Source of the DNA: Cucumis sativus
Lineage: Eukaryota > Streptophyta > Magnoliopsida > Cucurbitales > Cucurbitaceae
NCBI RefSeq assembly: GCF_000004075.3
Contig: NC_026660.2
Coordinates: 496,001-560,000 of the forward strand
Length of the DNA: 64,000 nt
Direction: 5' to 3'
Below, piece after piece: positions 7,623 through 56,374 of this stretch. Position 1 is the first letter of the stretch; every line of letters begins with the position of its first letter. The notes below the pieces were generated by a model that saw nothing but the letters and a program-made list of their open reading frames with translations, made no database searches and was not told where the DNA came from. Made by a program: the position numbers and the translations under genes.

Positions 7623-8111
7623 CTATCCTAAAACGGAGTTGAAGTCCGTCTCAAAAGTCTCAGCGATACCGGAGGCAGCCCACAGCCGTTGATTAAATTC
7701 ATCCATCATCTCATCAGGCACGAACGGCGTTCTACAAAGTGGACAAGTGTCATGATCATGATCCATCCAACTATCCACACACCTCCGGTGGAATATGTGC
7801 TTGCAATTCGTTAGCCACCGGATCTCCTCCGCCCCCTCGAACTCGTACAAGCAAACCGCGCATCTCTCCGGCGGGTTTGGCAGATCGGAGAATTTCACCA
7901 CCGGGAGGAGTTCGCGGAGGAGTAGGGCCGACGGGGGAGGGTTGAGGGGAAATTGGAGTTCCGGAGGTAGATTGTCGGAGGGGAGGAATTCGGGTAGGCC
8001 GAGGAGGCGGAAGAGGGAGAGGATGAGGAATTTGAGAACGTCGAGGAGGGAGAGGAGGTGGAGGAATATGGTGGGGAAGAAAACTTCGGTGCAACCCACG
8101 GGAAAGCCCAT
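7623..8111 (-). CDS. BRH1: RING-H2 E3 ubiquitin ligase, BRH1/RHA1-like
   Basis: Intronless 162-aa protein. The N-terminus MGFPVGCTEV is the family signature and is followed by a hydrophobic stretch at about residues 11-40 that probably anchors the protein to a membrane. The C3H2C3 RING-H2 domain has C84, C87, C103, H105, H108, C111, C123 and C126, with the tell-tale EFEGAEEIRWL and WMDHDHDTCPLCRTPF segments. The tail PDEMMDEFNQRLWAASG is conserved in Arabidopsis BRH1 (brassinosteroid-responsive RING-H2), RHA1-type and XERICO-type ligases. Such proteins move ubiquitin from an E2 to substrates; BRH1 is lowered by brassinosteroid and raised by chitin elicitor. All eight zinc ligands are present, so it should be active. 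The ATG at 8111 is fixed by the MGFP signature. GC content is well above the flanks. Confidence 0.93.
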   Translation of the reverse strand: MGFPVGCTEVFFPTIFLHLLSLLDVLKFLILSLFRLLGLPEFLPSDNLPPELQFPLNPPPSALLLRELLPVVKFSDLPNPPERCAVCLYEFEGAEEIRWLTNCKHIFHRRCVDSWMDHDHDTCPLCRTPFVPDEMMDEFNQRLWAASGIAETFETDFNSVLG

Positions 8112-8193
8112 TACGGAGGTTTGATTTTGTAGATTGAAGTAAGGTAGTTAATGGGGAGTCTGTGTTGGGAAGAAGGAGAGGGGGAATTTGATT

Positions 8194-25000: not shown

Positions 25001-28000
25001 CAAGTTTCTTTTCAAAACATAGTGGGTATGTACATAAAAACTTCTTCCTCAAGATCGTCAGTAAGAAAAATAATTTTGAAATCGAGTGGAGAATCCAAGC
25101 ATCTATAGGTGTTTACAAATGATTTCCATTTAGAAACTAAAAAGGAAAGAGTAAAAGGCTTAAGGGTGTGTTTGGTCCAAAGAGTTGAGAAGTAGAAGTT
25201 GTGAACTCCACTCTATGTTTGGCACAAAAAGTTGGTGGGCCCCACTACTAAAAAAATATCAATTTTATACTCCTTACACCATGGATCCCAGGAGTTCACA
25301 ACTCCATAGACTTGATAACTTGTTGGAGCTCACTATTCCACTCCTTGTCCCAACACTTCATATTCAAGTTGTTTGTACTATAAGTTGTACAACCTATAAA
25401 ACATATACTGTTCAAGTAAGTTTGTACTTGTGTCTAGATTTTAGTTGTTAAACTTTTATGGTGTGTTTTGGATGGAGATTCAGGGGATTGGGAAAAGGGT
25501 TATGGCTCAAACCTTGTTTGGGCCAAGGGTTTGCACTTTTGGGGATTAGGGTTAAATAACCCTACAAATTTCCCTACTTCATCTTCTCATAATACTACAC
25601 TCATAAACCTTCCCCCAAACACATGTTATAATAATTGTACAATTATAAAACCCTTCCCCGAAACGCATATTATCATAATACTACAGTAATAATCCTTCCC
25701 CCAAACACATATTATTATAACACTACCAATAATAACCCTAACCCCAAACACATATTATTATAACACTACTATCATAATCCCTCCCTCAAACACATATTGT
25801 CATAACACTACCATTCATATTCCTTCCCCCAAACACATATTACCATAACACTACCAATAATAACCCTAACCCCAAACACATATTATCACAACACTAGGAT
25901 TATTATAATCAGGATTGATAATCCTAGGATTATCATAATCCTTTTCCCCATAACTCTTTCCCACCCCCAAACGCACCCTTAGTCTTTATTGTACCTTATG
26001 TGTAGTGGGTCTTTCTTGCACCTTTTTTAATGACATAAAAGTTTACTCCCAAAATTTGCAAGGAATTTTCTTTTGTACTCTTATCAGTTCTTATATTGTG
26101 TAGTTAATTTTTCTTGTTTCTTTTAATTTGGAATTGGCTGATATTTATTCTCGTTGGAAGCTTTTTGCAGGTTTGGTATCCTTCTCCAGGCGTCGACTCC
26201 TTTAAGCAGGAGGATTTCTTGCAGGTATGACTGTGTGGGCCTGTGACTACTAAATTCTTAATAGTTACATATTTGCAACTTGTGAGTTCCTAAGAGATGC
26301 AAGAAAATGAAGTGTTATTCTTTTTGGTTCTTCACAATTATTTCTCATTTTATAAGATTCTTCCAATTTTATTTGATCATTTGAGGTTACTGTATGCTCT
26401 CCTTTTGGAAGCGCTTTTGATTTAGTTCTTTTGGAGGTTTTTAACACCTTGCAATCCGCCCTTAGGCTGTTCGTTTTGTGAGTGATATAGTCCACTGTTT
26501 CTTATCTAAAAAAAGTTTCCTAAAGATCAATGTATAACATTTTGGTTAAAATATTTTTTCATCTGTTGACTGGCCCTTCTGTTTGACTGTTTCTATATTT
26601 GCATATCCCTATACCTCAATTTAAAGATGAAAAAAAAGTCTCTATACACTTTGTACAAGGTGGTTGTCTGTGCTGCTTTAATCTTTTGTATGAGACAATG
26701 TTATCTTTAGGTTATTCTGAGTCATCTAAATGCAAAATAGTTGTTGGACGTTGCCTGACTTGTTTAAGGTATAAACCTGCTTGTAGCTGGATCCAGAGTT
26801 GGAATTTGATCGGGAGGTATACCCACTTGGACTTCTCCCAAATGCTGGTGTTGTTGTAGGTGTATCTCAAAGAATGTCATTTTCTGCAAGCACAGAATTT
26901 CCATGTTTTGAGCCATCACCTCAAGCTCAAACCATACTGCATTGCCTATTACGGCATCTTCTACAGGTAGCTCATTATTCTTCTCATGTTATTGAAGCTT
27001 CATTGAGTTCAATGGTCCCATAATGCATGGATGTGGGGGCTATATCTTAGAACTTGATACTTTCTGGCTTCAGCTTCCTCAAAGGAAAAAAAATTGAATA
27101 TTACCTAGAGTTGTAACTATATTGATGGTTTTAACTAAATTATCTCTCTATTACTGAAGATGAAGCTAACCAGAAATACTGTCTGAACCAATCCAACATT
27201 GTTGGTATAGGAGAGTGAGAACACTAGCCAAGGGAAATCCTGACTAGGCCTACAGTAACTAACTTGGGCCCACTTTTCTAACAAACTCTTATCCCACTCA
27301 AGTTCCTGATACTTGATTGCCCTTCCCCTTCCTAGCCCCTCTTCCTAGTGTTCACCTTCTGAAATGGGGGCCTATCACATCATCAGCATGAAAAGTACCC
27401 AAAAAAAAACTTTTGAAGATAGAGTTTTCATTGGAAAGAAAAGAAGAAATAAATTCATCCCGACAGTTAATGTCTAATAGTCTCATGCTACTATTATATA
27501 TCCAATACAGACGTTCTTTTAAATCTTAATGTGATTGGAAATCTGCAGAGAGATAAAAGTGAGGAAGCTCTAAGGTTGGCACGATTATCAGCAGAGAAGC
27601 CTCACTTTTCTCATTGTCTAGAATGGCTTCTTTTTACAGTTTTTGATGCAGAAATATCCAGGTAATGCCTTTAGGAAAGGAAAATTTGCTTCACTCAATT
27701 CTTGTATTACTTCATATCATTTAAATTTTCCTCGTATAAATTTATGCTCCAAAGCTGTTATCTTATAGTTTCAATTTTTTCAGTACATTCGTTCTTATTT
27801 TGCTAATTTTTCAATAAATTCCCAGTTGTCAAATTCAAAACATGAACTAAACGTATCCCCAAGTTTTTGTGATATTAGCTGTGCATCTTCTCTTTTTCCA
27901 CTTTTATATTGTCCCATTATCTGCAGCACAATGTTTAAGGCAATTGGAATATTATTAGGCAATAAGTTTCTGGCTTGTCTGAATGTGTTAGAGGGTGCGT

Positions 28001-32168: not shown

Positions 32169-34686
32169 TAGCAAAGATTAGCTTCTAACCATTGTTTCAT
32201 CTTCATCAACCATCTGCCACCAAATGAAATGGCACATTCATTTCCATATCCATGTCCAATGTGATTATCTCGTTGGTTTTTTGATAACAGATCGCAAACC
32301 GGTCGAAGTACATTTGATCAAGCAAGCATCAACATGTTAACAGAGAGCGAAGCAGAGCAGTATTAATCGACCCCTCTCGACATAAGCATTAGATAATAAT
32401 GAGTGGAGTCTCACTAGAATCTTGCTACTTCAGCCTTGCCGATTGGAGGATATGGCTTTTCTTCTCCTTGTAATACTAATTCAATCAATATTGTGTATAT
32501 GGCTTTTCTTCTTCCCCTTTGTCAAGAGTTTTCTTTTTTGGGGTTTGCTGGGTGAGGGGTGGTTGAGTAATGTTAGGAAGGGAATCTGTAAAGTTTGTGC
32601 AAATGGTCATTATTGTAGGAAGTATTATTTCTTTGCAATATTCCTTATTTAAGTATTCTTTTGGAGAAACGTGTAATAGTTTAGTGCTTAGAGCTTGTAC
32701 TACTTAAACGTTGGTCATAAGATGTCAAATATTTGTAGGGGCTTTACAATGACTAATGGAGTTCTCCATAGAAAATAATAATGGGTTGTTTGGCCTCAAT
32801 TTGGAGTGAATTGGATTGGTTATTAACTCATTGTTTGAGGTGTGTTTAGATAATGAGGGTAGGAACGTTTTGGTACAATAGCACTATTTATGACTTTACA
32901 ATAATAATTGTATTGTAAGCTCACTCTAAAGCTAATTATTGATGACTTGCCCTAACAACCAACTGAATGACCACCTTTAGAAACTAAATCAAACAATCAC
33001 TTCAGTAATCAACCCCAATGAAGATTACCTTCGAATGATCAATTATCATGCCCACCTTTGGTCACTACTTCCAGCGAATGTCTTTGGTAGCCAACTTCGA
33101 CGATCACTTCTTGTGGCTAATTTATTTTTAAGTTACTAATAATTGAAAATATATTTAAATATAGATTTGAAGTTATAGGTATTTAACCGTCTTTTTTTTA
33201 GTGAAATAAATATATGTGGTTTGAAACGCTCTGTATACACTCGTAGAAAATGTAATTAAACATTAGTGTTATTTGGATTTCAAATAGTTTTTGTAAACCA
33301 TATTCGAAATGAAAGTGATCTAGAAAAAAAAATATTCTTTTCTATACAATTTAAACATGATATTCATGTTATTTTCAACGTTAAAAGAACAAACGGTGGG
33401 ATAAAAAAATCATCTTATTCTTACATTTTTAAATCATGTTATTTAACATATCGTTAATGTTAATTGAAAAGAACAAACGGTGGGATAAAAAAATCATCTT
33501 ATTCTTACATTTTTAAATCATGTTATTTAACATATTGTTAATGTTAATAAAAAGAAAAAAGTCAACTTCAACAGCTTAAATATGACAAAAGTGGTTTTAA
33601 TCCTTTAAAAAATGATTCTAAAGTGGTTTAGTTAAGGGAATTAAAAGAAAACAAAGCTTTGTTGAGTAATGCTATGGTCAATTAATAATTTATCATAGGA
33701 TTGATTGAAATTCCATTCTAACTTGATTGATATGGTTACAAAGGAGTAGTTCTTGAAAACTGTTCTAGAGTTCCCCAAGAGTTATTGGCAAGGATTAAAA
33801 TGTGGAGAGATGATGAAAAATAGACTGCAAGGAAAAATCCGCTAAGAGCGATCAAAATTAACGACGATCGGATTGAAACTAGTTTAAGTTGACAGTTAGA
33901 CCTAATAAGCTTGAAAGTAACTGATAATATTTACATGAACTTAACAAGGCAAGATTACATCCATCAATAAATGCTGAGACATTTTGTTGTTTACTTTTTA
34001 TACTTCATAATTTCCCCCCTATGAACGTACAGATGGAAATATCAGAAATTCAAAATCGTTATTCAATAATTTAAGGGCAGCAAAGGATAAAGAAAAATAT
34101 CAAATTTCATTCTAAAGTTAGGTTTTAATTTTAGATTTTTAATGTCGTCAAAATCATCGTCTACTTAACTTCTTCATGAACACATCAAGCCATTCCAAAA
34201 ACACTACAATATGTCTCAAACTTCTAAATTAGAACTTTCTAATAATATGTAAACAAGTGCATATATTCAAAAATACATGATGGTTTTATACCAAGGAAGA
34301 AGTTTTTTTTTTTAAAAAAAAAGTACATGAGATGAGATTTTAACCTAGATCTAAAGTAGGCTGGGGAACATGTTCTCAGCAAACTACAATTACTGACACT
34401 TCATTGGTTCTGTATATATTATATAAGGAGTACATAGTTGAGAGAGTTCAAGCACCCTGAACTCATGTTAAATCCGACTAAGAAAACTACATAAGTAGAT
34501 GTATTTATGCCAATTTCTTGAGATTGTTCTCTCAATAACTTACATAATATCATTACACTCAAAACAAACTTTATGTTACAGATTTCTATTATAGCTTACT
34601 TGCTTTCAAATACAATAATTCCACCACCTTCTATATCTAGACATTGAATAAACTTTATGTATCCTCAAGTTTGAACAAAGCTTTAA
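32169..34686. other. Intergenic region between RIC1 and the malectin gene
   Basis: The first 500 bases or so are the RIC1 3' UTR. The rest is AT-rich spacer. A 'tgttttgg/gtttgaggtgtgtttag' patch at about 32790-32860 looks like a decayed MITE end. The tandem repeat at 33383 is listed separately. I looked on the minus strand at 33700-34686 for remains of a kinase domain belonging to the malectin gene and saw none. Confidence 0.5.
33383..33550. repeat. Two tandem copies of an 84-bp unit
   Basis: 33383-33466 and 33467-33550 are nearly identical (for example 'aacaaacggtgggataaaaa' in both), differing by only a few bases. This is a recent local duplication with no coding frame. Confidence 0.9.
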
Positions 34687-36099
34687 CTAGGAATTGACTA
34701 TTCCCATTCCCATGTTAGATTTAACTTTCCAACTATCCACAACAGGCAATTTCGACCACGAGAAAGAATCTTCCCTTCTGATTACCTTTTGACGCAACAT
34801 TAGCGACACAATTACCACCAAACACAAAATCACTATATAAGGAACTAAATTAATGGTGTTTCCTTGACATCTCTTCAAAATCATCTCAGTAGAAAGGTTA
34901 CCATCAAAGCTACCTAAAGAGTTATTCAACTTCATGATCTCAATTCCATTTAGAAGACCATCTATAGCATATGGAACACTCTGGTTAGAGCTTCCTATAC
35001 TAATTCTAAGAACCCCTTGTTGATCACCACTGACCATGAAATCAAGATAGAACGCGGTAGAAAGTTCCCAATTAGCAGCGGTTGAGAGATCGAAATTCTC
35101 ATATGCCATGTGTCCGTTAACATAGATATTGAAAAACAGAAAACCAATTGATATACTTGCAATATCACAAAAATGCAAGCGAACGATGTAGTTGTATCCA
35201 TTGATAGCGGGGAAGGTCCATGTCATATTGGTGTTCGGAATCGATGAATTTGTACTCTTGATCACTCGAGCAGAGTTGTAGACATTATCGGGACAAACTT
35301 CACGACTTGCCCCACCTTCCTGATACTTAATTCTTCCAGTAGTATACACTTTCTTTGATCCATTATTTGATTCGAAGTGTTCATCATCAGGAACCCAAGT
35401 CCTCCAAAAAGAATCATTGAAGGGAGTAACCTTAGGCCCCCCAACATTGACTCTATACAACACTTCACGCCCTTCCTTGGACAACCCATCAACATTTCCA
35501 CTATGTTCATAACTCAAATATTTTGCAGAATCAGCAACAAGATCTTTTGGTGCAGAAATAACTTCAATCGCATTAACAAAAGCGAATTTCGATTTCTTAA
35601 CAGGGACGAAGGTAATTTCAAGAGTTTCAGTTCCAACCCAGATAAGAAACTCCTTAATTCTAGGGTTTACAGCAGAGACACCACTAAAATTACTCAAAAC
35701 CACATACCCATTAACCAAAACGTGAAATCGAGCACGAATGAGGTCCAAATCTGAAGAGGTAAAAGCTTGGAAATGGAGACGTACCATATGTGTGCCTTCG
35801 TCTTTGATCTGAAACTCGTACTTGGATGGCATCTCGAAAACGCGAGCTGAATTGTAAAATGGGGGCAAACCTTGATATGGGTGTTGATTTGTGAGAGAGA
35901 AAGAGCGGGGGGAAGAGAGAAAAAGTGAACTTGAAGAGGAGGAATCGGAGAGGAAGATGCGATGATCGACGGTGGACTTAAGGGTTGACCCACAATCGAT
36001 GAGGTAGTGATCGGTGGGAGAGAAGTGGGAAAAGGAAAGAATAGGGATGGTTGATGAAGAAAGTATGAGAACAAAGAGAATTGGATTCAGAAACTCCAT
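34687..36099 (-). CDS. Malectin-like receptor protein without a kinase domain (CrRLK1L-type ectodomain)
   Basis: Intronless, 470 aa. The open frame runs upstream to about 36180, but the codon there is TTG; the first ATG is at 36099 and gives a good signal peptide (MEFLNPILFVLILSSSTIPI). The ectodomain starts FSPTDHYLIDCGST and carries YRVNVGGPKVTPFNDSFWRTW, the pattern of CrRLK1L receptors of the At5g24010/THESEUS/FERONIA group, with malectin-like domain(s) spanning about residues 30-400 and several N-glycosylation sites (NDS, NMT, NQS, NNS). One membrane helix (LVPYIVILCLVVIVSLML) lies near 418-435. Only 35 residues follow, ending in a TAG stop, where family members have a Ser/Thr kinase of about 300 residues. 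The ectodomain may bind cell-wall ligands or RALF peptides, or act as co-receptor or decoy; this is inferred. It could also be a truncated former kinase gene. Confidence 0.85.
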   Translation of the reverse strand: MEFLNPILFVLILSSSTIPILSFSHFSPTDHYLIDCGSTLKSTVDHRIFLSDSSSSSSLFLSSPRSFSLTNQHPYQGLPPFYNSARVFEMPSKYEFQIKDEGTHMVRLHFQAFTSSDLDLIRARFHVLVNGYVVLSNFSGVSAVNPRIKEFLIWVGTETLEITFVPVKKSKFAFVNAIEVISAPKDLVADSAKYLSYEHSGNVDGLSKEGREVLYRVNVGGPKVTPFNDSFWRTWVPDDEHFESNNGSKKVYTTGRIKYQEGGASREVCPDNVYNSARVIKSTNSSIPNTNMTWTFPAINGYNYIVRLHFCDIASISIGFLFFNIYVNGHMAYENFDLSTAANWELSTAFYLDFMVSGDQQGVLRISIGSSNQSVPYAIDGLLNGIEIMKLNNSLGSFDGNLSTEMILKRCQGNTINLVPYIVILCLVVIVSLMLRQKVIRREDSFSWSKLPVVDSWKVKSNMGMGIVNS

Positions 36100-36117
36100 T
36101 GGGAGAGGAATGAAAGT

Positions 36118-36145
36118 GGAGGAGGAGGAAGAGGAAGAAAAAGAA
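36118..36145. repeat. (GGA/GAA)n tract in the malectin gene leader
   Basis: Purine-rich triplet repeat just upstream of the ATG; on the sense strand it reads as a CT-rich leader. Confidence 0.7.
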
Positions 36146-36199
36146 GATGAAGCCGCGTATGAAATAATGGAACCAACCAATCACTTCATACAGCTAAGA

Positions 36200-37098: not shown

Positions 37099-41081
<3,983 letters not shown>

Positions 41082-44821: not shown

Positions 44822-45826
44822 TTAACAACCCCTTAGGTTTGATAGCAAAGCATCGCGTCCTGCCAAAACAATTTGGAAAAAGTTGTCGACTTCCTTTGTA
44901 AGCGAATGTAGATCTTTTGATAGTTTCTCTGTCTTTCCTCCCAATTCTGATATGCTGTTCTTCAGCAGTTGAGCTTCTTCGACTTCTGGCTTCTCTGGGA
45001 TCATTTGTTGAAGTTTGCCTACACATTGATCAATAGCCTCAAGCTCCTTCAGAGGGGTGAACTTTCCACGTGCGTATATACTTCTAATTTCACTATTTAC
45101 ATCATTCTGCAAGGAGGAGAAAGTTTGTCCCCACAAATATGTATTGGCTATATCCAGATCAAAGAGCTTTGGGGAGCTTAAGAAGGCAGAGGCGAAGACA
45201 CTGCACACAAAAACTGTCTGTACCTTCACCCCGTACAAAGCCTGCATCAGAACCTTGCCTTTGGCAGAGTTCTTAATTTTTGGAAGATCAAGTGATTCTA
45301 CAAGGCTGTCTAAGATTACACAACAACTCTTAATTCTAGAACTTGTGGTGGTGATGTTCTGTCTCCACTCTTTTAAGGAAGTACGAGCTCTAGCAAGTCG
45401 TTCTGAATCAGCAGAATCCAGATTATGGATGACACACCGGAGCATGAGGTTGCTTTGGTTCAAGTGTGAAAGCTCTGAGCTAAGAGCGTTACAGACATCA
45501 AGCAGTTTCACACTGATGTCCAAATAGACATCAATCAACTTCTCATTCCAATCAGGGACAGGGAGGTCCAACTCCTTGATAAGATTTTTAACATCACTGT
45601 GAGTTTCACAAAGCAATTCCATGGCTAATATCATCCAAGAAAGGCTAAGAACGTCATCCTCACCAGATGGATGGAGCTTTTGTAGTCTTTCAGCTAGGCT
45701 TCTTTCAAAAGCATTCAATATATCTACAAGTTTTGAAGGTAAATTTGAACCTTTGGGAGATCTCATGCGGAAGGGATTCCCAAAGGGGAAAAATTGTCTG
45801 CGTGGTGGTTCATGTAATTGGCTCAT
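44822..45826 (-). CDS. BPS1: BYPASS1 (BPS1) family protein
   Basis: 334-aa protein coded by one exon. It opens MSQLHEPPRRQFFPFGNPFRM, and the blocks SPKGSNLPSKL, DDVLSLSWMILAMELLCETH, LPVPDWNEKLIDVYLD, KNSAKGKVLMQALYGVKVQTVFVCSVFA and LAGRDALLSNLR match Arabidopsis BPS1 almost throughout. BPS1 prevents constant root-to-shoot signalling by an unidentified mobile compound; its mutants lose shoot growth. The hydrophobic VFVCSVFASAFLSS segment (about residues 207-220) may be buried or membrane-associated, and a coiled coil is likely near the C-terminus (about 260-320). A splice acceptor (ttcag) lies six bases before the ATG, so a 5'-UTR intron is likely, as I recall for Arabidopsis BPS1. Confidence 0.95.
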   Translation of the reverse strand: MSQLHEPPRRQFFPFGNPFRMRSPKGSNLPSKLVDILNAFERSLAERLQKLHPSGEDDVLSLSWMILAMELLCETHSDVKNLIKELDLPVPDWNEKLIDVYLDISVKLLDVCNALSSELSHLNQSNLMLRCVIHNLDSADSERLARARTSLKEWRQNITTTSSRIKSCCVILDSLVESLDLPKIKNSAKGKVLMQALYGVKVQTVFVCSVFASAFLSSPKLFDLDIANTYLWGQTFSSLQNDVNSEIRSIYARGKFTPLKELEAIDQCVGKLQQMIPEKPEVEEAQLLKNSISELGGKTEKLSKDLHSLTKEVDNFFQIVLAGRDALLSNLRGC

Positions 45827-45831
45827 CGTGA

Positions 45832-47285
45832 ACTGAAGTATTTATGAGATCTTGATGTTATGTAATGACTGCAGGAAAGATCAGATTACGTGGTAAGGAA
45901 TAATTTGTTGAACAAAGGAGGTAGAATGCTTCAGGAGTACTTAAACAACAGGAATAAAACCATATTGATCAAAATATATCAAGTTTGAATCGAATTACAT
46001 GCAAGTTCATTCTTTAGAATTTTGTATTTGAAAAATTCATCTACAAGCAACAGCAGTAAAATCTCCATAGAAAATATGCTTTAAGATACACATAAAGATT
46101 GAGAATGGTACTGTAGTCTACGCATAAGAGGTCTAAACCTTCTTACAAGTATCCAGATCTCAAGATTTTAGATTTTCTAGCAACAGAAGAAAAAGTCAAA
46201 CCAATTCTTTTCAGGATTTGCAGAGCATCAAATAACAAAAGACAAGAAACAAAATCAAATAATTCACAACTAGGTCAGCAAATTAAATATGAGGGTGGAG
46301 GATACCGCTCTAAGAAACAACCAATCGCAACATACAGCATAAGTTTCAAATACAATACAGGAAAGCAACAAAGATTCTTACCATCTATAGAACTTCATAA
46401 AACATACATCTTCAACAATAGATCTACAGATCCTATATCAAAACCAATATTGACCAAAATATATCAAGTTCAAATTACATGTAAGTTCATTCTTTAGAAT
46501 ATTGCACTTGAAAATCTCATCTACAATCAACAGCAGTAAAATCTCCATAGCCAATTTGCTTTTATGACATACATAAAAGATTAAGAAACGGAATTGCTAT
46601 GCTTAATCTCCATCCCAGATCTCAAGATTATACGTTTTCTAGCAATAGAAAAAAAAAGTCAGCCCAATTCTTTTCAGGATTTGCAGAGCATCAAACAACA
46701 AAAGACACGAAACATAATCAAATAATTCCCAACTAGGTCAGCAAATAAGCTACAGAAAAGCAACAGAGATTCTTATCATCTAAAAATCTTCATAAAACAT
46801 ACATCTTCAACAACAGATCTACAGATACCATATCAAAACCAACACAAAATACAAAAACAGTAAACAAAGTCTTGAGATCTAAAATTTTACCAAGTCTTTC
46901 AACAGTCAACACACTTCCATAAAGCAAGCGAATCCCATAAAGAATCACGAAATAGAGATCTAAACCTAACAATTACGAGAAACCAAAAAGTATAATAAAA
47001 ATGGCTCACCTAAGCGTTAGAAATACGAATTGTTATAATCTAAAGATAAAACAGCACCGGAGTTCTCGATAGTTGGCACCAAATTCATCAATGAAAAGAG
47101 GGGAAAACAAAAAAAGAAAATAGAAAAACAAGAAAAGCTAAAAAGGATCTCAACAAGCTCAGAAATGAATCCAATGAACCAAAGATATTGAGGAGGAACG
47201 AAATTATACCGATTGTTATTGAAGGAAGGGAACTGGAAGTTTCAGCAGCGTTGAAAGGTCGATATAGAAAAATCAGGATGAGGAG
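45832..47285 (-). other. BPS1: Inferred 5'-UTR exon and intron of BPS1
   Basis: Reading on the minus strand, a leader-like CT-rich stretch at about 47280-47210 ends in the donor 'cg|gtataat', and the acceptor 'acttcag' lies at 45833-45839. This predicts an intron of about 1.38 kb at 47209-45833. No ATG-initiated long frame interrupts the leader. The exact transcription start is not visible. Confidence 0.5.
45959..46845. repeat. Diverged tandem duplication inside the BPS1 leader intron
   Basis: Unit A (about 45959-46445) and unit B (about 46446-46845) share long blocks in the same order: 'aaaatatatcaagtt', 'aagttcattctttagaat', 'caacagcagtaaaatctcc', 'ttcttttcaggatttgcaga', 'caactaggtcagcaaat' and 'aaaacatacatcttcaac'. 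Unit A has about 70 extra bases at 46288-46352. The copies differ enough to be old. Confidence 0.88.
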
Positions 47286-48690
47286 AGTTTGATAACGTTA
47301 CTAGTGGGTGACTGAAGAGGATATGACGTGGCGGGGTTTGATTGGGGTATGGGAAGTGGGTGAGGGGGAAGGAGGGTTATGTTCAATGGTGATAAAGGGG
47401 AGGGTATTTTGGGAAAGTTGAAACGTGAGGGGTGTGATAATACCGTGTGAAAAGAGACGGAATATGCTAACATCAAACAAACAAACAAACACGAAAACTT
47501 CATTTTTGTTTATATTTATTAGGGTTTCTTTCACAATTTGATTTTGCCTAACTTTTCTAAATTACCCTTTTGGGTTTTTTTACTTTTCTTTTTAAAAGTT
47601 ATATATATATATATATATATAAACAAAGGCGTTTAATTTGATCGAGTGTATAATATTTTTTTGTTAATAGAATCGAAAAAATCTATCACTCATTTGCTAA
47701 TAGAAACTCTCAAACATGAATAAAATTGTTAAATGATATGAAAAGTGTATTTACTTTTTAAAAGAGAAAGATACAAATTGTGGGGGAGAAAAAAGTAATT
47801 TGAATATATTATTAAAAATGTTAGGGTTAGTCCGTTTGTATTCAATTGTGGTATTCTAATTGTAAGCTGTCGCCACCTTTGACAAATACACAATTGCCAC
47901 CAACTTTTCCAAATGGCTACATCTTTTCTTTGAACTTATCAACTTTTAATAATTCAACTCCTCAACAAATAAGAAAAGGACAAAAAAAAAAAAAAACAAT
48001 TGAATAATTGAGTTTCTTCATCAAGTGGGCCATTTTTATATATTTTTTTTTGGAGAAAATCATGAAATGAAAAAAATAATAAATAACAATTTGAAACAGA
48101 GTAAATAAAAAAAATTTGATTTACAGCAAAATCGCCTTACATATTTTTTTTTTACTTTTTTCAGTCGATTTTATCGAAATTCGTTTCTCTTTACTAGTAT
48201 TTGTATAGATGAAAATAGTGAAATATAATTTGATCTCATACAATATATTTGCAAATCAATCCATTTTTAAAAAATATTAAATAAATTTTTGGAATGGATA
48301 CTAAATTTATGACCGCATTTTATCAGATTTTTATATTTTTAGGGTTTAAATAAACTATTTATATATATATATATATATTAATAGCTATTTAACTTCATAT
48401 TATTATATCATAAAATAAATTGATGACTTAATTATGCATCAGTATTGAAAATGTCACAGAAAACTATTGGTGTCGTTGATTCATCCAATAAAGTATTTTT
48501 CTTCCAACTTAAAGTTGATTTCAAAATATTCTTGGAAATCATGTCCTTGTGTTCATTGTTCATGGAATCATCGTAAACATTTCTCCAACGTTGTTTAGTC
48601 TTTTTTTTTTTTCTAATTCTTTTTTGGTAATTAAATTGTTTGAAATTTATGCTTTTTGCTTTTTTTTCCCTCATTTTCTTTATAGATCAT
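47286..48690. other. Intergenic region upstream of BPS1
   Basis: 47290-47470 is less AT-rich and is probably BPS1 promoter. A (TA)n tract lies at 47600-47621 and another at 48359-48379. The rest is AT-rich with poly(A/T) runs and no gene. Confidence 0.5.
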
Positions 48691-48699
48691 AAAGGAATG

Positions 48700-49677
48700 A
48701 AATGCTGAAAAGTGTACTGAAAAGTTTTGAAAGCAGGCCAGTGCTATTGGTGAGTGGGATAGGAGGATTATGCAAAATCGTGATATTCTTCTTAGAGTTG
48801 AGGTGTTATGTCACTTAATAACAAGATTTTTAAATCTTCAATGAGATATGAAATTTAATTTGCTATTATATCTGATCTAACAAAACATTTGCAAATGATT
48901 ATAAGAAAGGATAGTTGTAGTTAATGAATTTTTGGACCATCTGATTCTTGTACTATTCACCTTGTGTCTTTCATAGGGATCCTAATTTGTAGGAGATGAA
49001 CTTTGAGTATATTTGTTAGAAAATCTTTAATTTAAGTGTTCACATCCCTTTATTTTTCTTCCCTGTGTGTTCCGGACAATGCTCAGTTCAATTTTACCTC
49101 AATGTTTCGTCTCCCAACTGATTTCTAATTTTTGTTATTTGAAGGGTCTCATTTAAAGAATTGAAAAGCTGCAATAGAGAAACTAACCAAAGGGGCTTAT
49201 GTCATACTTTGTCTTCTTTGTTGGAATTTGTGTTGCATATTGGTGCTTTGGTTTTTTGTACTAGTCCTCTTTACTGGATAAACTAGTGAGAATTTTTCAT
49301 TAGGATGGCCTTCGAAGGGATTTGCTTTTTTTATTTTTGCTGTTGCGTTTTTAAAATTTTTAGGCTGCAGTCTTTTCCTGAGTTCTTAATTGGTTGTATT
49401 TTGTTGCATATGTATTTGTTTTGTTCTTTGTTTCTTAATGATTCACTTAATTTCTTTTTGTTTTTCTTAGTGAGATATTTATTGATAAGATAAAATATTC
49501 TGAAGAATGTGGAAACCCATCATGGAAAGAGGGTTCTGATCTCTATATCTAAATGTCAAAAAGGAATAATGAGAAAGATAGATTGCTGTAATCCATTTAT
49601 TTTGAATTTAGATTGAGGTTGAAAAGGTGGTTGAGACCCAAGCTGAATTGGAGTTGATCCAAACTCACCAACAAGAG
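48700..49677 (+). pseudogene. NUP62: Nucleoporin NUP62 gene fragment, broken
   Basis: Two exon-like pieces read as the C-terminal coiled-coil (Nsp1_C) of plant NUP62. Piece 1, about 48704-48802, has KQASAIGEWDRRIMQNRDILL and ends at a GT donor. Piece 2, 49612-49677, follows an AG acceptor and reads IEVEKVVETQAELELIQTHQQE, again ending at a GT donor. In intact NUP62 these are consecutive exons. A TGA at 48728-48730 replaces the expected Arg codon (CGA to TGA is a single change), and piece 2 lacks about four residues after ETQA. No other NUP62 exons are visible nearby. Retained introns show it came by DNA duplication, not by reverse transcription. NUP62 itself lines the central channel of the nuclear pore. 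Confidence 0.78.
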
Positions 49678-52035: not shown

Positions 52036-52931
52036 AATTCAAATATATTTTATTTGACACACATTTCTATGCTTCTTTCGATTCTTAGTCACAATCTTTT
52101 TTCCTAGTGAAAGAATTATACCAACAAAAAAAAAATCAAGATTAACCATATACACAATACTCTTCATCCTCAAAGCTGGCTTTAATAAGGGTAAAGGAGC
52201 CTCAATTATTTGGTATGTCATCAATAACAAATTATTTAATCCACAAATATTTCTCTTACATCTTCCACACTTGAATCATGAAGTTATAAGTCGTTGCGTT
52301 GATGAAAAAAGATGCATAAATGTTGCCTTTAATTTGCTTCAAAGATACATAAGAGGTGGAGAAAGGACCAAGATCCAAGACAACACTCAATTCAATCTGT
52401 TCAGTTTCAACATCAAGAGCATATGTCATATACTCATCTTGTTTATCTAATTTTGTTCTTCCTATCCACACCATTCAAATAAGCATCACTACTGCACATG
52501 AGAAGAGGGATAAAGTGGAGTTGCCTCCATTGGTTATGGTTGTGATTAGTTTCACTTCTTCTACTAAAGTGTAAAACATCAATTATCGATGAGTTATTGC
52601 CAGAGTTACCATCAATAAAGAATGAGTCGGTAACTAGAAACAATTTGTATTGCTTTGTTATAGGACTAAAATCTAATCTAAAGGAGTGATCACCATCTAA
52701 CTCATCTCAAGGAACTTAGAAAACCAGAATAAAAAACATATTTACACAGATAAAGAAGAGACCATTGCAGGGATTGTTCACTGTAGAGATAAAGGACCAA
52801 TGGCCATGAAAGCTTAAGGAAGGTGATTTAGTCCATTTTGATTCAGATTCCAAATCTAAATGTCTGATAGTATCAAAACAGATACAATGCATGTTAGGGT
52901 TAAAGATTTTTGTTATTGGGACCTTTATCAC
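52036..52931 (-). pseudogene. Decayed F-box-associated protein fragment
   Basis: Minus-strand pieces in different frames line up in one order as an F-box-associated interaction domain. At 52931-52716 there is LDLESESKWTKSPSLSFHGHW; at 52643-52443 VTDSFFIDGNSGNNSSIIDVLHF; at 52474-52256 YMTYALDVETEQIELSVVLD and YVSLKQIKGNIYASFFI; and at 52230-52039 a weaker tail. The pieces need at least three frame changes to join, and no F-box motif or start is seen upstream, so this is a broken fragment. Such families expand and decay quickly in plants. The family name is my reading of the motif style; the sequence would need a profile search. Confidence 0.55.
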
Positions 52932-53160
52932 TACAATGAATTTAGTTTTTCAAAATATAACCTAATGAATAAAAAAAAAATTGGCATTTATAATAACTTC
53001 CCCGGTAAGTTGAAGTTATTTTTTTACAGTAAAATATAGAAGTTAAATATTTTACTAAGAAAGTTATTATAAAAGGAGGGAAGGGCAAAAGATAGAACCA
53101 AATTCTTGTGCTCCTACGTCCACTTCCATTTCCATTTTTGCAAAAAATCGTAAGAAAAGG

Positions 53161-54199
53161 ATGTGGTCATTCAGAGTCGCCGTCGACGATATGAAGGTTC
53201 TGATAGATTCGTTGATAACATTGGGATTGGTGGATGTAATGGCGGATGCAATATTTTCACCGGACATGTTTTGCATATTGGCGGATTCAGATGTTTCCCT
53301 TCAAAGCGCCTTCGGACTTCAACTCTGGCCTCCATTCTTCGACAGTTTCTACTCCGACAACCTTCGTCAAATATTCTGGTTCCGCCTTACTCATCTTTTC
53401 CCTCTCGCCGTAGAATTGCTAGAATCTGGTTACACTTCTCTAACCTTCTCTATCGAACGCTTCCGTCACAATTACGCCCAATTCAAATTCGAAGGACCAA
53501 ACGGTAAGTCTTCTTCTTCTTCTTCTTCTTCTTCTTTCTTTCTTTTTTTTTTTTTTTTCAAGATTTTTATTTATTTGATTTCTGGAAAGTAATTCTGTTT
53601 TCTAGGGCTTCTTCGCGAGGTTAATTTCCGATTGACTCCGATCGTCCGTCCCTTGAGGATAGGCCAAATCGATCTATCCGCTTTTGTTACCATGGATTCT
53701 CAAGAATTCTCGTACATCATCTCTCAATATAATATGTTTGATTACGGTAAATTACTACTTTAGTTTCAATTTCAATTTCAATTTTAGTCAATAGAGAAAC
53801 CCTAAACCCTTATTATTATTTACAGTTGAAGTTATTATAACGAGCAGACGGGTGTCATTCTCTTCTTCAACTATACAGGAGACGACAATTAGTGCAGAGG
53901 TATATGATTTTAGTTTTGAGGATGTTAATTAATGAATTGATGTAAAAGTATGGTTTAATTGTTGGTAATAATTAATGTAGGATGGGCGATGCATAGTTGG
54001 GGGTGTTAGAGCACCGGTTCAAGTTCAGTTCATAATTACTATGAGTCAACCAAATGCATTCTTTCATTTTGCAAGTCAATCGAAGAGAATATGGCTGTTT
54101 AAGGAAGTTAATTCTACCAAAGGAATAATTACTGCCCCTCTTGGATTGTATGGTCGACTTGTCTCTTTCTTTTGTGATGACTCTACACTACCTATGTAA
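53161..54199 (+). CDS. Divergent sliding-clamp (PCNA-like) protein
   Basis: 258 aa from four exons: 53161-53503, 53606-53746, 53826-53899, 53981-54199, with GT-AG introns and matching phases. Length equals canonical PCNA (about 261-264 aa). The pattern of the two clamp halves can be followed: VDDMKVLIDSLITLGLVDVM for the first helix region, ILADSDVSLQSAF for QAMDSSHVALV, FEGPNG for FESPT, MDSQEFSYIISQ for MPSNEFSRICKD, VEVIITSRRVSFSSS for VVISVTKEGVKFST, and LGLYGRLVSFF for the final MGYIRYYL strand. Identity is low. The connector loop LGIP and the C-terminal LAPK motif, both used to bind PIP-box partners, are absent, and most DNA-facing lysines are replaced. It is most likely a paralog of PCNA with changed or lost partner binding. 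The domain call rests on pattern only; an alternative is another clamp-fold protein. Confidence 0.7.
53509..53558. repeat. (TTC)n and poly(T) tract at the start of PCNA-like intron 1
   Basis: Begins only a few bases after the donor gtaagt. Pyrimidine triplets pass into a T run. The tract is prone to length change. Confidence 0.85.
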
Positions 54200-56374
54200 T
54201 TGAATTACATATAATTCAATATTATATGTCTCTCTATCTTCTTTTTTGTACAAAAAATAATCACATTTGTTCCAGAGGTTGTACATAATCTTGATGATTG
54301 AATCACATATAATTCAATACTGTATGTTTCTCTCTTTTCCTTTTTTTTATAAAAATAATGACATATATTCAAGAAGTTTAGTTGGAATTTGTTAGGCATC
54401 TTGAATAAGACTTGAAGGTTCAAGCAGAGAGTTGGGAGACTGTTTTAAAATTATTATGATTTCAGTTTATTTATATAATTCATATTCCTTTTGCTATCCA
54501 TCAAAAATGAAATGTCAGTTTCATCAGGGTGGATTAATATTTATTAACATTTTATTATATCATACCTAATACATACTTTCATATGTCTAATAACAATTTG
54601 AAATGATTTTAGATTTTATATAAGATTTCAAATTCTTTCACACTATCACCCCTATAACAATTGCTAACATATATGCCTATAATTATGATGTATTTAACAT
54701 CTATATGAATTATTTTAAGAAAATTAAAATCGTGATACTTGATTGATTTACCTAAAACAATAACAAACATAATTTCAAAATTTTAGAATTATCTTGTTAA
54801 TATCCTTTATATATTTTCATCATTGTTATTTAAAAATTGATTTTAAATTTTGATTTGGAACCTCCAAAATACTAAAATTTTGATTTTAAATGTTAATATC
54901 TCATAAAAACCGTGATAATATGGTGATTCTAATATGAAAAATTATTTAATTATACCAATTATACCCAATAGTTTTTTTGAACTACACTAATGTTCAATTT
55001 TATTTTCATTTGACATAATATTTTCGAGTTTGCAAATATTTGAGAATGTTGTTGTGATTCTAATATGACATAATGTATGTAGCATAAGTTATTTAATTAC
55101 AAAGTATTTGAGTTTTAAGTGAACAATGTATTTTTCAGATTGGGTAGGAGTATTTGAGAGATTGTTTCATTTATTTATTTTTCAAACTTTTATGGTTTTC
55201 TATTCTAACAATTTATAATTATTTTTACTATTTTTCTAAAGTAAAACTCATAATTTGTTATTTTGGTTTACCATCCAATTTATTTTTTTAGATTGAATTG
55301 AATTGTGTTAAAATGTCAGCGTTAACCTTAGACCCCAAACACAAGTGTATGGACATGAACGAAGATAACATCGGAATGAATTCAAGTTTGAAGATATGAT
55401 AGTTGGTTTAAGAAAATTAACTATACTGATAAAAGGAGATTTAAAAAAAAAAAAAATCGTTGGGTTCAATGCTATATGTATCCGTTGGATGACTTCTTGA
55501 GAATTTATCTATTAATGAATCTAAAACTAATGTTGATTTGAGGAGACGATCTTCACTCTCGTTAGTTATCTAATAAATTTAATATAGAATATAGTAATGT
55601 AACCAAGGTATTGATATTGAGAATATTGAAGATAGTTACTTAGCTTAATATAATAGGATTAATACAAGGAACATATAGATTTTATTGGTTGATACATCTC
55701 ATTAGTGGATGATCCTTATCACATTTTATGCCGTCACTTCCATTCCTAAATTTAGATATATATGGATAACATATGAAGAAAACAAAATGGCATGTCGACA
55801 ATATTTTAAAGATATGTGTTGCCATAGTATTTCAATAGTGAATCAATATTAATGTGGTAGTATATCAACAAAACAATATATCAGCGATAAATCATAGATT
55901 TTAGAAAGAAAAAAAAAAAGTGAGGTTACTATCTCTATTGGTTAGTTGATGTATGGATATTTTGGCAATACTTTGCGAAAAGTTGTAATGTTATGTAGTG
56001 ACTTGCGTAACTATAATATTAGATATAATCAAAGACCATACAAAATGAAATTCCCCTGATGAATTTTCGAATCCTTAGAAATCTCTAGAATTCAATCGAA
56101 ACTCTACACTAATAACATCTCCACCTTTGATGGCTCACCCTCGGTCTTAGTCAACTAATTCACTCATAGAAAAAGAAATCCCCATTCTTTCATCGTCTAT
56201 CTGTACAAATATCTTCTATAAACCTCAAGAAAAAAAAAAAAGCTCTATTACATATAATTTCATCATACAACCCCACAAAATATATTTTCCAAATCAAACT
56301 ATAAAATTTACATGAAGCTGATCATACTCCAAAAAGGTTTTTGTTCTAATCATTGTTCTTATCATAATGAAAAA
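54200..56374. other. Intergenic region between the PCNA-like and DUF2358 genes
   Basis: AT-rich DNA with no gene. Near the left end, 'catataattcaata' plus 'tatgt.tctctc' occurs twice (about 54208 and 54305), a local duplication of about 50 bases just after the PCNA-like stop. The two genes converge here, so both 3' ends lie in this space. Confidence 0.5.

Follow-up and report, generated by a model that had tools for sequence, protein, structure and literature searches.

The locus considered here raises the question of whether a cucumber gene encoding a protein of PCNA length is a true derivative of the replication clamp and, if so, what such a protein may still do. According to PMC6570896, PCNA is conserved in sequence, structure and function between species. 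A first-pass annotation had put the gene forward as a fast-evolving PCNA paralog, and had proposed that its exon borders and sequence profile be compared with those of PCNA. The gene is located in the window, the whole stretch of 64,000 nucleotides that was analysed (C6:496001-560000 of the Cucumis sativus genome); C6 coordinates elsewhere are chromosome positions.

Structure of the window gene

The gene occupies window positions 53161-54199 on the forward strand, where four exons join into a frame of 258 amino acids ending in a TAA stop. The four-exon frame and intact splice sites originally described were borne out, all three introns running from GT to AG and the frame being open. The parts of the gene are given below, with a slash marking the position of an intron.

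53161..53503, + strand: exon 1, codons 1-114 plus 1 base, equivalent to PCNA residues 1-106 (FEGPN/G against FESP/T), with a phase-1 intron next
53504..53605, + strand: intron 1, GTAAGT...TTCTAG, 102 bp, phase 1, in the position of canonical PCNA intron 1
53606..53746, + strand: exon 2, PCNA interdomain-loop region and then the start of the C-terminal domain (PLRIGQIDLSAFVTMDSQEFSYIISQ)
53747..53825, + strand: intron 2, GT...AG, 79 bp, phase 1, MFDY/VEVII against IGDT/VVISV
53826..53899, + strand: exon 3, 74 nt against 98 nt in canonical PCNA, with the trimer-interface strand stretch (TRGDIGSANIV) shortened
53900..53980, + strand: intron 3, GT...AG, 81 bp, phase 0, ISAE/DGRC against TVDK/PEEA
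53981..54199, + strand: exon 4, stop included, with the family core CIVGG...RIW...AP.GLY, ending near the LAP position of PCNA, without K254 and the acidic tail

The G+C content was 39-45% in the exons and 22-24% in the introns, and a (TCT)9 run lies inside intron 1 (53509-53536). A 98-bp direct repeat of 1.8 copies (window 54199-54378) begins at the stop codon, and stretches matching this repeat also stand behind the gene at C6:7.045 Mb. Other long frames of the window were named by eye as malectin-like receptor-kinase type (34687-36180), a kinase exon (37900-38400) and RING-finger type (7623-8147), and a frame of 339 aa was found at 44822-45841. The window additionally contains an 84-bp tandem duplication (33383-33560, 95%) and a 43-bp array of ~7 copies (25580-25896); scanning it for Rfam families (gathering threshold) and for tRNAs gave no matches.

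Searched alone against Pfam, the window protein produced no domain matches. Five matches were returned by phmmer from the PDB with E values of 0.9-1.4, all five to PCNA and in register over ~50 residues, the best placing query residues 129-177 on residues 124-173 of a PCNA chain. AlphaFold2, given the window protein as a single sequence, yielded a poor prediction (pLDDT 38.7, pTM 0.29). From the window sequence by itself, the likeness to PCNA is suggestive, a pointer short of proof.

A family of PCNA-derived loci in the cucumber genome

The window gene is one of ~30 intact, fast-changing PCNA-derived loci, which had gone unseen in the first-pass annotation. The genome (226.6 Mb, 88 contigs) was searched with the window protein, which gave 34 exon-level matches, and with seven other members, which lengthened the list. 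Gene models were generated with a purpose-written spliced protein-DNA aligner; in a control at three loci the opposite strand scored 21.6, 32.6 and 47.6, whereas the coding strand reached 332.6 (for a fragment), 1159.3 and 700.8. Thirty full-length open models were obtained, the window's included, and both a start codon and a stop codon were present in all 29 of the others. Seventeen models form a tandem cluster at C6:247308-290162 (43 kb), ~260 kb away from the window gene, lying on both strands at ~1 gene per 2.5 kb, and the 13 models outside the cluster are distributed over C6, C2, C3 and C5. The segments C2:18338501-18345000 and C5:17651501-17658000 both carry an intact paralog; with 99.9% identity over 6.5 kb, they may represent a very recent duplication or one locus assembled twice.

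Broken or partial copies were identified at C6:6798 kb (near 6798159-6798374; exon 4, interrupted by an in-frame stop), C2:8657 kb (~8656957) and C2:14325 kb (~14325399), with a degenerate family stretch near C6:291031, so that dead members coexist with intact ones. The lowest aligner scores among the full-length models were those of C6:288 kb (134.8), C6:260 kb (247.9) and C6:268 kb (264.1). The first of these scores was no better than those of the broken C2:8657 and C6:291 kb loci, and the C6:288 kb protein as a single query retrieved no other family members. Leave-one-out profiles recovered the same three models at E values of 3.9e-20, 3.7e-36 and 9.3e-37, with best E values of 28, 28 and 51 among 50 shuffled controls each, and the value of 3.9e-20 answers the doubt over the membership of C6:288 kb.

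Descent from PCNA

Two canonical PCNA genes are present in the same genome, at C6:12.35 Mb and C5:5.46 Mb, each with 4 exons and with introns at ESP/TQDK or ENP/SQDK, IGDT/V and TVDK/PEE in phases 1,1,0. The introns of the window gene (FEGPN/G, MFDY/V and ISAE/D; phases 1,1,0) stand in the same places as in both canonical genes, and the exon-border comparison therefore gave agreement in all three positions and phases. All three PCNA introns in phases 1,1,0 were found in 29 of the 30 models, namely the window gene, 26 automatic models and two adjusted by hand (C6:247 kb and C6:7140 kb), for which neighbouring GT-AG sites were chosen to conform. The remaining paralog (C6:271 kb; C6:271150-272257) is without intron 3, and its exons 3 and 4 are fused in frame. 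The GT-AG borders are partly built in, as the aligner takes no donor other than GT or GC and no acceptor other than AG, while phase was free; only models in phases 1,1,0 whose frame was free of stops were admitted to the pool of query proteins. The templates for modelling the paralogs were the window protein and other family members, never PCNA.

A profile of 20 members gave 99 matches in the PDB, the best 60 of which were all PCNA, with Arabidopsis PCNA1 as the top single ring (2.4e-15). With 28 members there were 111 matches, the best 60 again all PCNA, and values of 1.4e-17 for the top single ring and 2.6e-17 for Arabidopsis PCNA1; in both lists one PCNA chain of 798 aa, matched in three stretches, outscored the single rings. 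Alignment of the family with the canonical pair by hhalign gave an E value of 9.2e-12 over query residues 3-175, and six leave-one-out profiles found both canonical genes, with E values from 1e-15 to 3e-18 where the best among 300 shuffled controls reached 28. The homology of exon 4 is based on intron 3, which the family has in common with PCNA, and on the matches to some chains that extend to residue ~230. The hydrophobicity correlation with PCNA was 0.59, compared with 0.28-0.52 for 16 reversed or shuffled controls, a modest and mildly informative difference.

The profile comparison was thus positive with the family profile and hhalign, where Pfam had been empty for the window protein alone; it is the family profile that makes the PCNA relationship decisive, the single-sequence searches being too weak for it. 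When 20 members were searched against Pfam, PCNA_C was matched by five (best E 0.021) and PCNA_N by one (E 0.042), none at cut-off, and in the genome as a whole the two canonical genes were the only matches to PF00705 (at E ≤0.001) and PF02747 (at E ≤10). These data, shared introns and family profiles, support the proposed paralogy and show that the family descends from PCNA.

We also considered whether the family might instead belong to the 9-1-1 checkpoint clamp, as a divergent HUS1, RAD1 or RAD9. Weak Pfam scores were seen for Hus1 in two of 20 members (best E 0.0029) and for Rad1 in one (E 0.0033, a value equalled by the unrelated FAIM1, 0.0033), and the second Hus1 match of the genome, below cut-off at E 0.69, is exon 1 of the C6:247 kb member. 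The genome matches over the Pfam cut-offs for Hus1 and Rad1 are elsewhere, namely on C7 (HUS1) and on C4 (a RAD1 candidate), and the HUS1 match, being one open frame of 320 aa, has none of the PCNA introns, all three of which occur in the family. With separate HUS1 and RAD1-candidate loci, no member near the Pfam cut-offs for Hus1 and Rad1 and PCNA alone among the best 60 PDB matches of the family profile, membership of the 9-1-1 clamp is disfavoured and appears barely credible.

Window positions 52617-54477 match the locus at C6:7.045 Mb, with a value of 84.5%, and additional matching pieces fall within 48643-49530. A retroposed origin was ruled out because the introns are retained and flanking DNA was duplicated too, and the common plant introns speak against a viral origin. 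Duplication, at the DNA level, of a plant PCNA gene with its introns retained is the origin we prefer, as part of an explanation which, taken whole, we hold to be slightly better than an even prospect.

Loss of clamp-defining residues

The alignment comprised 28 of the 30 models, the C6:7140 kb model and the second copy of C2:18.34 Mb being left out; for C6:247 kb, the protein in the alignment and the dN/dS runs was the version before its splice sites were re-chosen. The DNA-facing basic positions of the PCNA inner face, which we take to be K13, K14, K20, K77, K80, K110, R146, K149 and K217, were kept in 0, 1, 0, 0, 4, 2, 14, 3 and 0 members respectively, and the window protein is without all nine. 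Summed over the four inner helices, the net charge was +5 for canonical PCNA, -2 for the window protein and between -6 and +4 for the members. Six of the 28 were at +3 or +4, and these six, with R146 kept in 14, indicate that some paralogs may still meet DNA. K164 was kept in none of the 28; in tomato PCNA this residue is sumoylated, as is K254 (PMC10548238).

The absence of the LGIP loop and the LAPK tail, claimed from the window alone, holds across the family: the loop residues L126, G127, I128 and P129 were kept in 4, 4, 6 and 1 members respectively, and the C-terminal L251, A252 and P253 in 3, 0 and 0. The window protein does retain equivalents of L126 and I128, with G at the P129 site. 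The richness in aromatics was also confirmed, at 14.3% in the window protein and 10.4-17.5% among members against 6.4-6.5% in canonical PCNA. A family core was evident in the 28 proteins, with G194 identical in all of them and F173, C190, W224 and P239 nearly invariant.

PCNA residues 173-180 are gapped in all 28 members, and exon 3 measures 71-77 nt in 26 models, compared with 98 nt in the canonical genes, which leaves the interface-strand region 7-9 residues shorter. The strands FESPTQDKIADFEMKL and DIGTANIVLRQNTT join neighbouring subunits of Arabidopsis PCNA according to PMC6570896, in which BiFC instead points to the loop and the C-terminus. The counterpart of DIGTANIVLRQNTT is the stretch that is shortened in the family, and the partner strand, FESPTQDKIADFEMKL, is weakly conserved, with F114 retained by a single member of the 28 and mostly replaced by L. 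A strand-like segment is left at the interface region (QETTISAE in the window protein), so the 173-180 gap is in part a choice of alignment. The alignment shows, for the predicted proteins, a family-wide loss of most clamp-defining residues, and it is likely that the trimer interface has been lost with them.

These features bear on the earlier proposal of mixed trimers or dominant inhibition, by which the protein would enter the canonical PCNA ring and block the binding of partners. The PCNA descent and the PCNA-like hydrophobic pattern are consistent with it, and Arabidopsis PCNA1 and PCNA2 are reported in mixed trimers in PMC6570896. The shortened interface region in all 28 aligned members and the weak partner strand make the proposal appear less likely, and a family changing so fast throughout would not readily keep its fit to a near-invariant partner. 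Trimer poisoning is disfavoured because of both, the interface strands and the speed of change beside such a partner, and we regard it as unlikely.

Rapid protein change with open reading frames

Pairwise maximum-likelihood dN/dS was calculated for 18 pairs hand-picked among the closest, these being the canonical pair and 17 paralog pairs. Omega was 0.023 for the canonical pair, a rough value since its silent sites were saturated, and 0.37-2.03 over the 17 chosen paralog pairs, roughly 16 to 88 times the canonical value; the claim of fast evolution is supported by this comparison at the level of the family. Omega was below 1 at p <0.05 (uncorrected) in five of the 17 pairs, with values of 0.37 (3e-7), 0.43 (2e-5), 0.60 (0.009), 0.60 (0.022) and 0.65 (0.025), the last being the window gene against the C3 copy. 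Seven further paralog pairs gave 0.53-0.89 with 1 not rejected, and the five pairs run in the C6:271-279 kb subclade gave 1.26-2.03, one with p 0.027, uncorrected. The tree, based on the 28-member alignment, grouped the window gene with the C6:7.045 Mb, C3 and C6:263 kb copies, with support of 100/99 at each step, and under a midpoint root a branch of 2.9 changes per column adjoined canonical PCNA.

Compared with its nearest copy, which is 86% identical, the window gene gave an omega of 0.72 (p 0.30), so that neutrality is compatible with this pair taken alone. The exons of the two copies differ by 53 substitutions in 777 positions without indels, against 133 in 1032 and 16 indel events in non-coding DNA (p 2e-5 for substitutions, p 1.5e-4 for indels); the introns alone, with 16 substitutions in 245 positions and 3 indel events, have the substitution rate of the exons. 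In a stop-only neutral simulation (4000 runs) both copies stayed open in 7.4% of runs at dS 0.1, 0.1% at 0.3 and none at 0.6.

It could be argued that the loci are relaxed, near-neutral relics, duplicates heading for loss and open only through their youth. The window pair, with an omega indistinguishable from 1 and like substitution in exons and introns, is as such relics would be, as are the 12 of 17 paralog pairs that fail to reject an omega of 1 downwards at 0.05 and the fragments at C6:6798 kb, C2:8657 kb and C2:14325 kb. Such decay does not sit well with 30 full-length open models, with the five pairs below 1 (two of them strongly, at 0.37 and 0.43), with a simulation that seldom leaves both copies open, or with one invariant and four nearly invariant residues in 28 members. 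The earlier argument against simple decay therefore stands in part: decay is disfavoured by the open frames and the lack of exon indels, and the window pair alone is compatible with neutrality. We consider the relic explanation quite unlikely; rapid protein change with the frames kept open is what the family shows.

A putative role away from the replication fork

The explanation that we prefer, at slightly better than even odds, is that the window gene is a functional member of a PCNA-derived birth-and-death family, and that its product acts as a protein-binding module freed from the clamp. A plant PCNA gene would have been duplicated with its introns and would have given rise to a multiplying family under birth-and-death evolution. 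The two-domain PCNA fold would be kept in a monomer or a new assembly that probably does not encircle DNA, would not be modified at K164 or K254, and would lack the PIP-box binding typical of PCNA. Judged from sequence, a stand-alone PCNA-fold protein-binding module is favoured over a ring subunit; it would have a quickly changing surface and may serve as a decoy. The setting, at a guess, could be reproduction or a conflict, for example with selfish elements or DNA viruses recruiting the PCNA of their host.

Either setting can be phrased more narrowly. A reproductive or gametophyte-specific PCNA derivative, changing fast through sexual conflict or relaxed constraint, would agree with the tandem expansion and with the omega values of 1.26-2.03 in one subclade (five pairs; one p 0.027, uncorrected); the sequence holds no pointer to any tissue, and this reading is an unlikely one. 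Alternatively, the family may be a rapidly evolving arsenal of PCNA-shaped decoys, held off DNA and tying up the PCNA-binding proteins of viruses or selfish elements, with the tandem cluster as the source of diversity. Geminivirus Rep and REn bind plant host PCNA, according to PMC10548238, which makes decoys conceivable, although in this specific form we would give them rather poor chances.

No description of such a PCNA-derived family was found in a library of open-access papers, as judged from titles and the starts of abstracts. Some 30 open loci without most of the DNA-contact, interface and modification sites would, if true, be an uncommon example of a clamp released from its work in replication, and it seems that an essential housekeeping clamp has been turned into something new. 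Its members lend themselves to a comparison of which parts of the clamp fold serve what, and as candidate host decoys of replication factors they can be put to the test. The family is also a warning that such genes slip past Pfam-based annotation.

Comparison with known systems

Canonical PCNA (PF00705, PF02747; Arabidopsis PCNA1 and PCNA2) has in common with the family a length of ~258 aa, three introns in phases 1,1,0, the hydrophobic pattern and profile similarity over residues 1-173, extending to ~230 with some chains. The family differs in having lost K164, LGIP, the C-terminal tail and most of the basic residues of the inner face, and in its shortened interface-strand region. Cucumber PCNA is listed as Csa6g188070.1 in PMC10140933. 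Canonical PCNA is limited to two loci compared with ~30 in the family, and the family is without a Pfam match near cut-off. HUS1, RAD1 and RAD9 are divergent PCNA-superfamily proteins of plants, and in cucumber HUS1 (C7, a single exon match) and the RAD1 candidate (C4) are genes separate from the family. A PCNA-like1 gene of Phaseolus coccineus, reportedly described by Strzalka et al. in 2010 (cited in PMC7761550), is also a plant gene named PCNA-like. Fast-evolving tandem families of plants include the NLR and F-box families, which the PCNA-derived family resembles in its tandem cluster, dispersed copies, fragments and partly high dN/dS; the starting protein differs, being in the PCNA-derived family a replication clamp.
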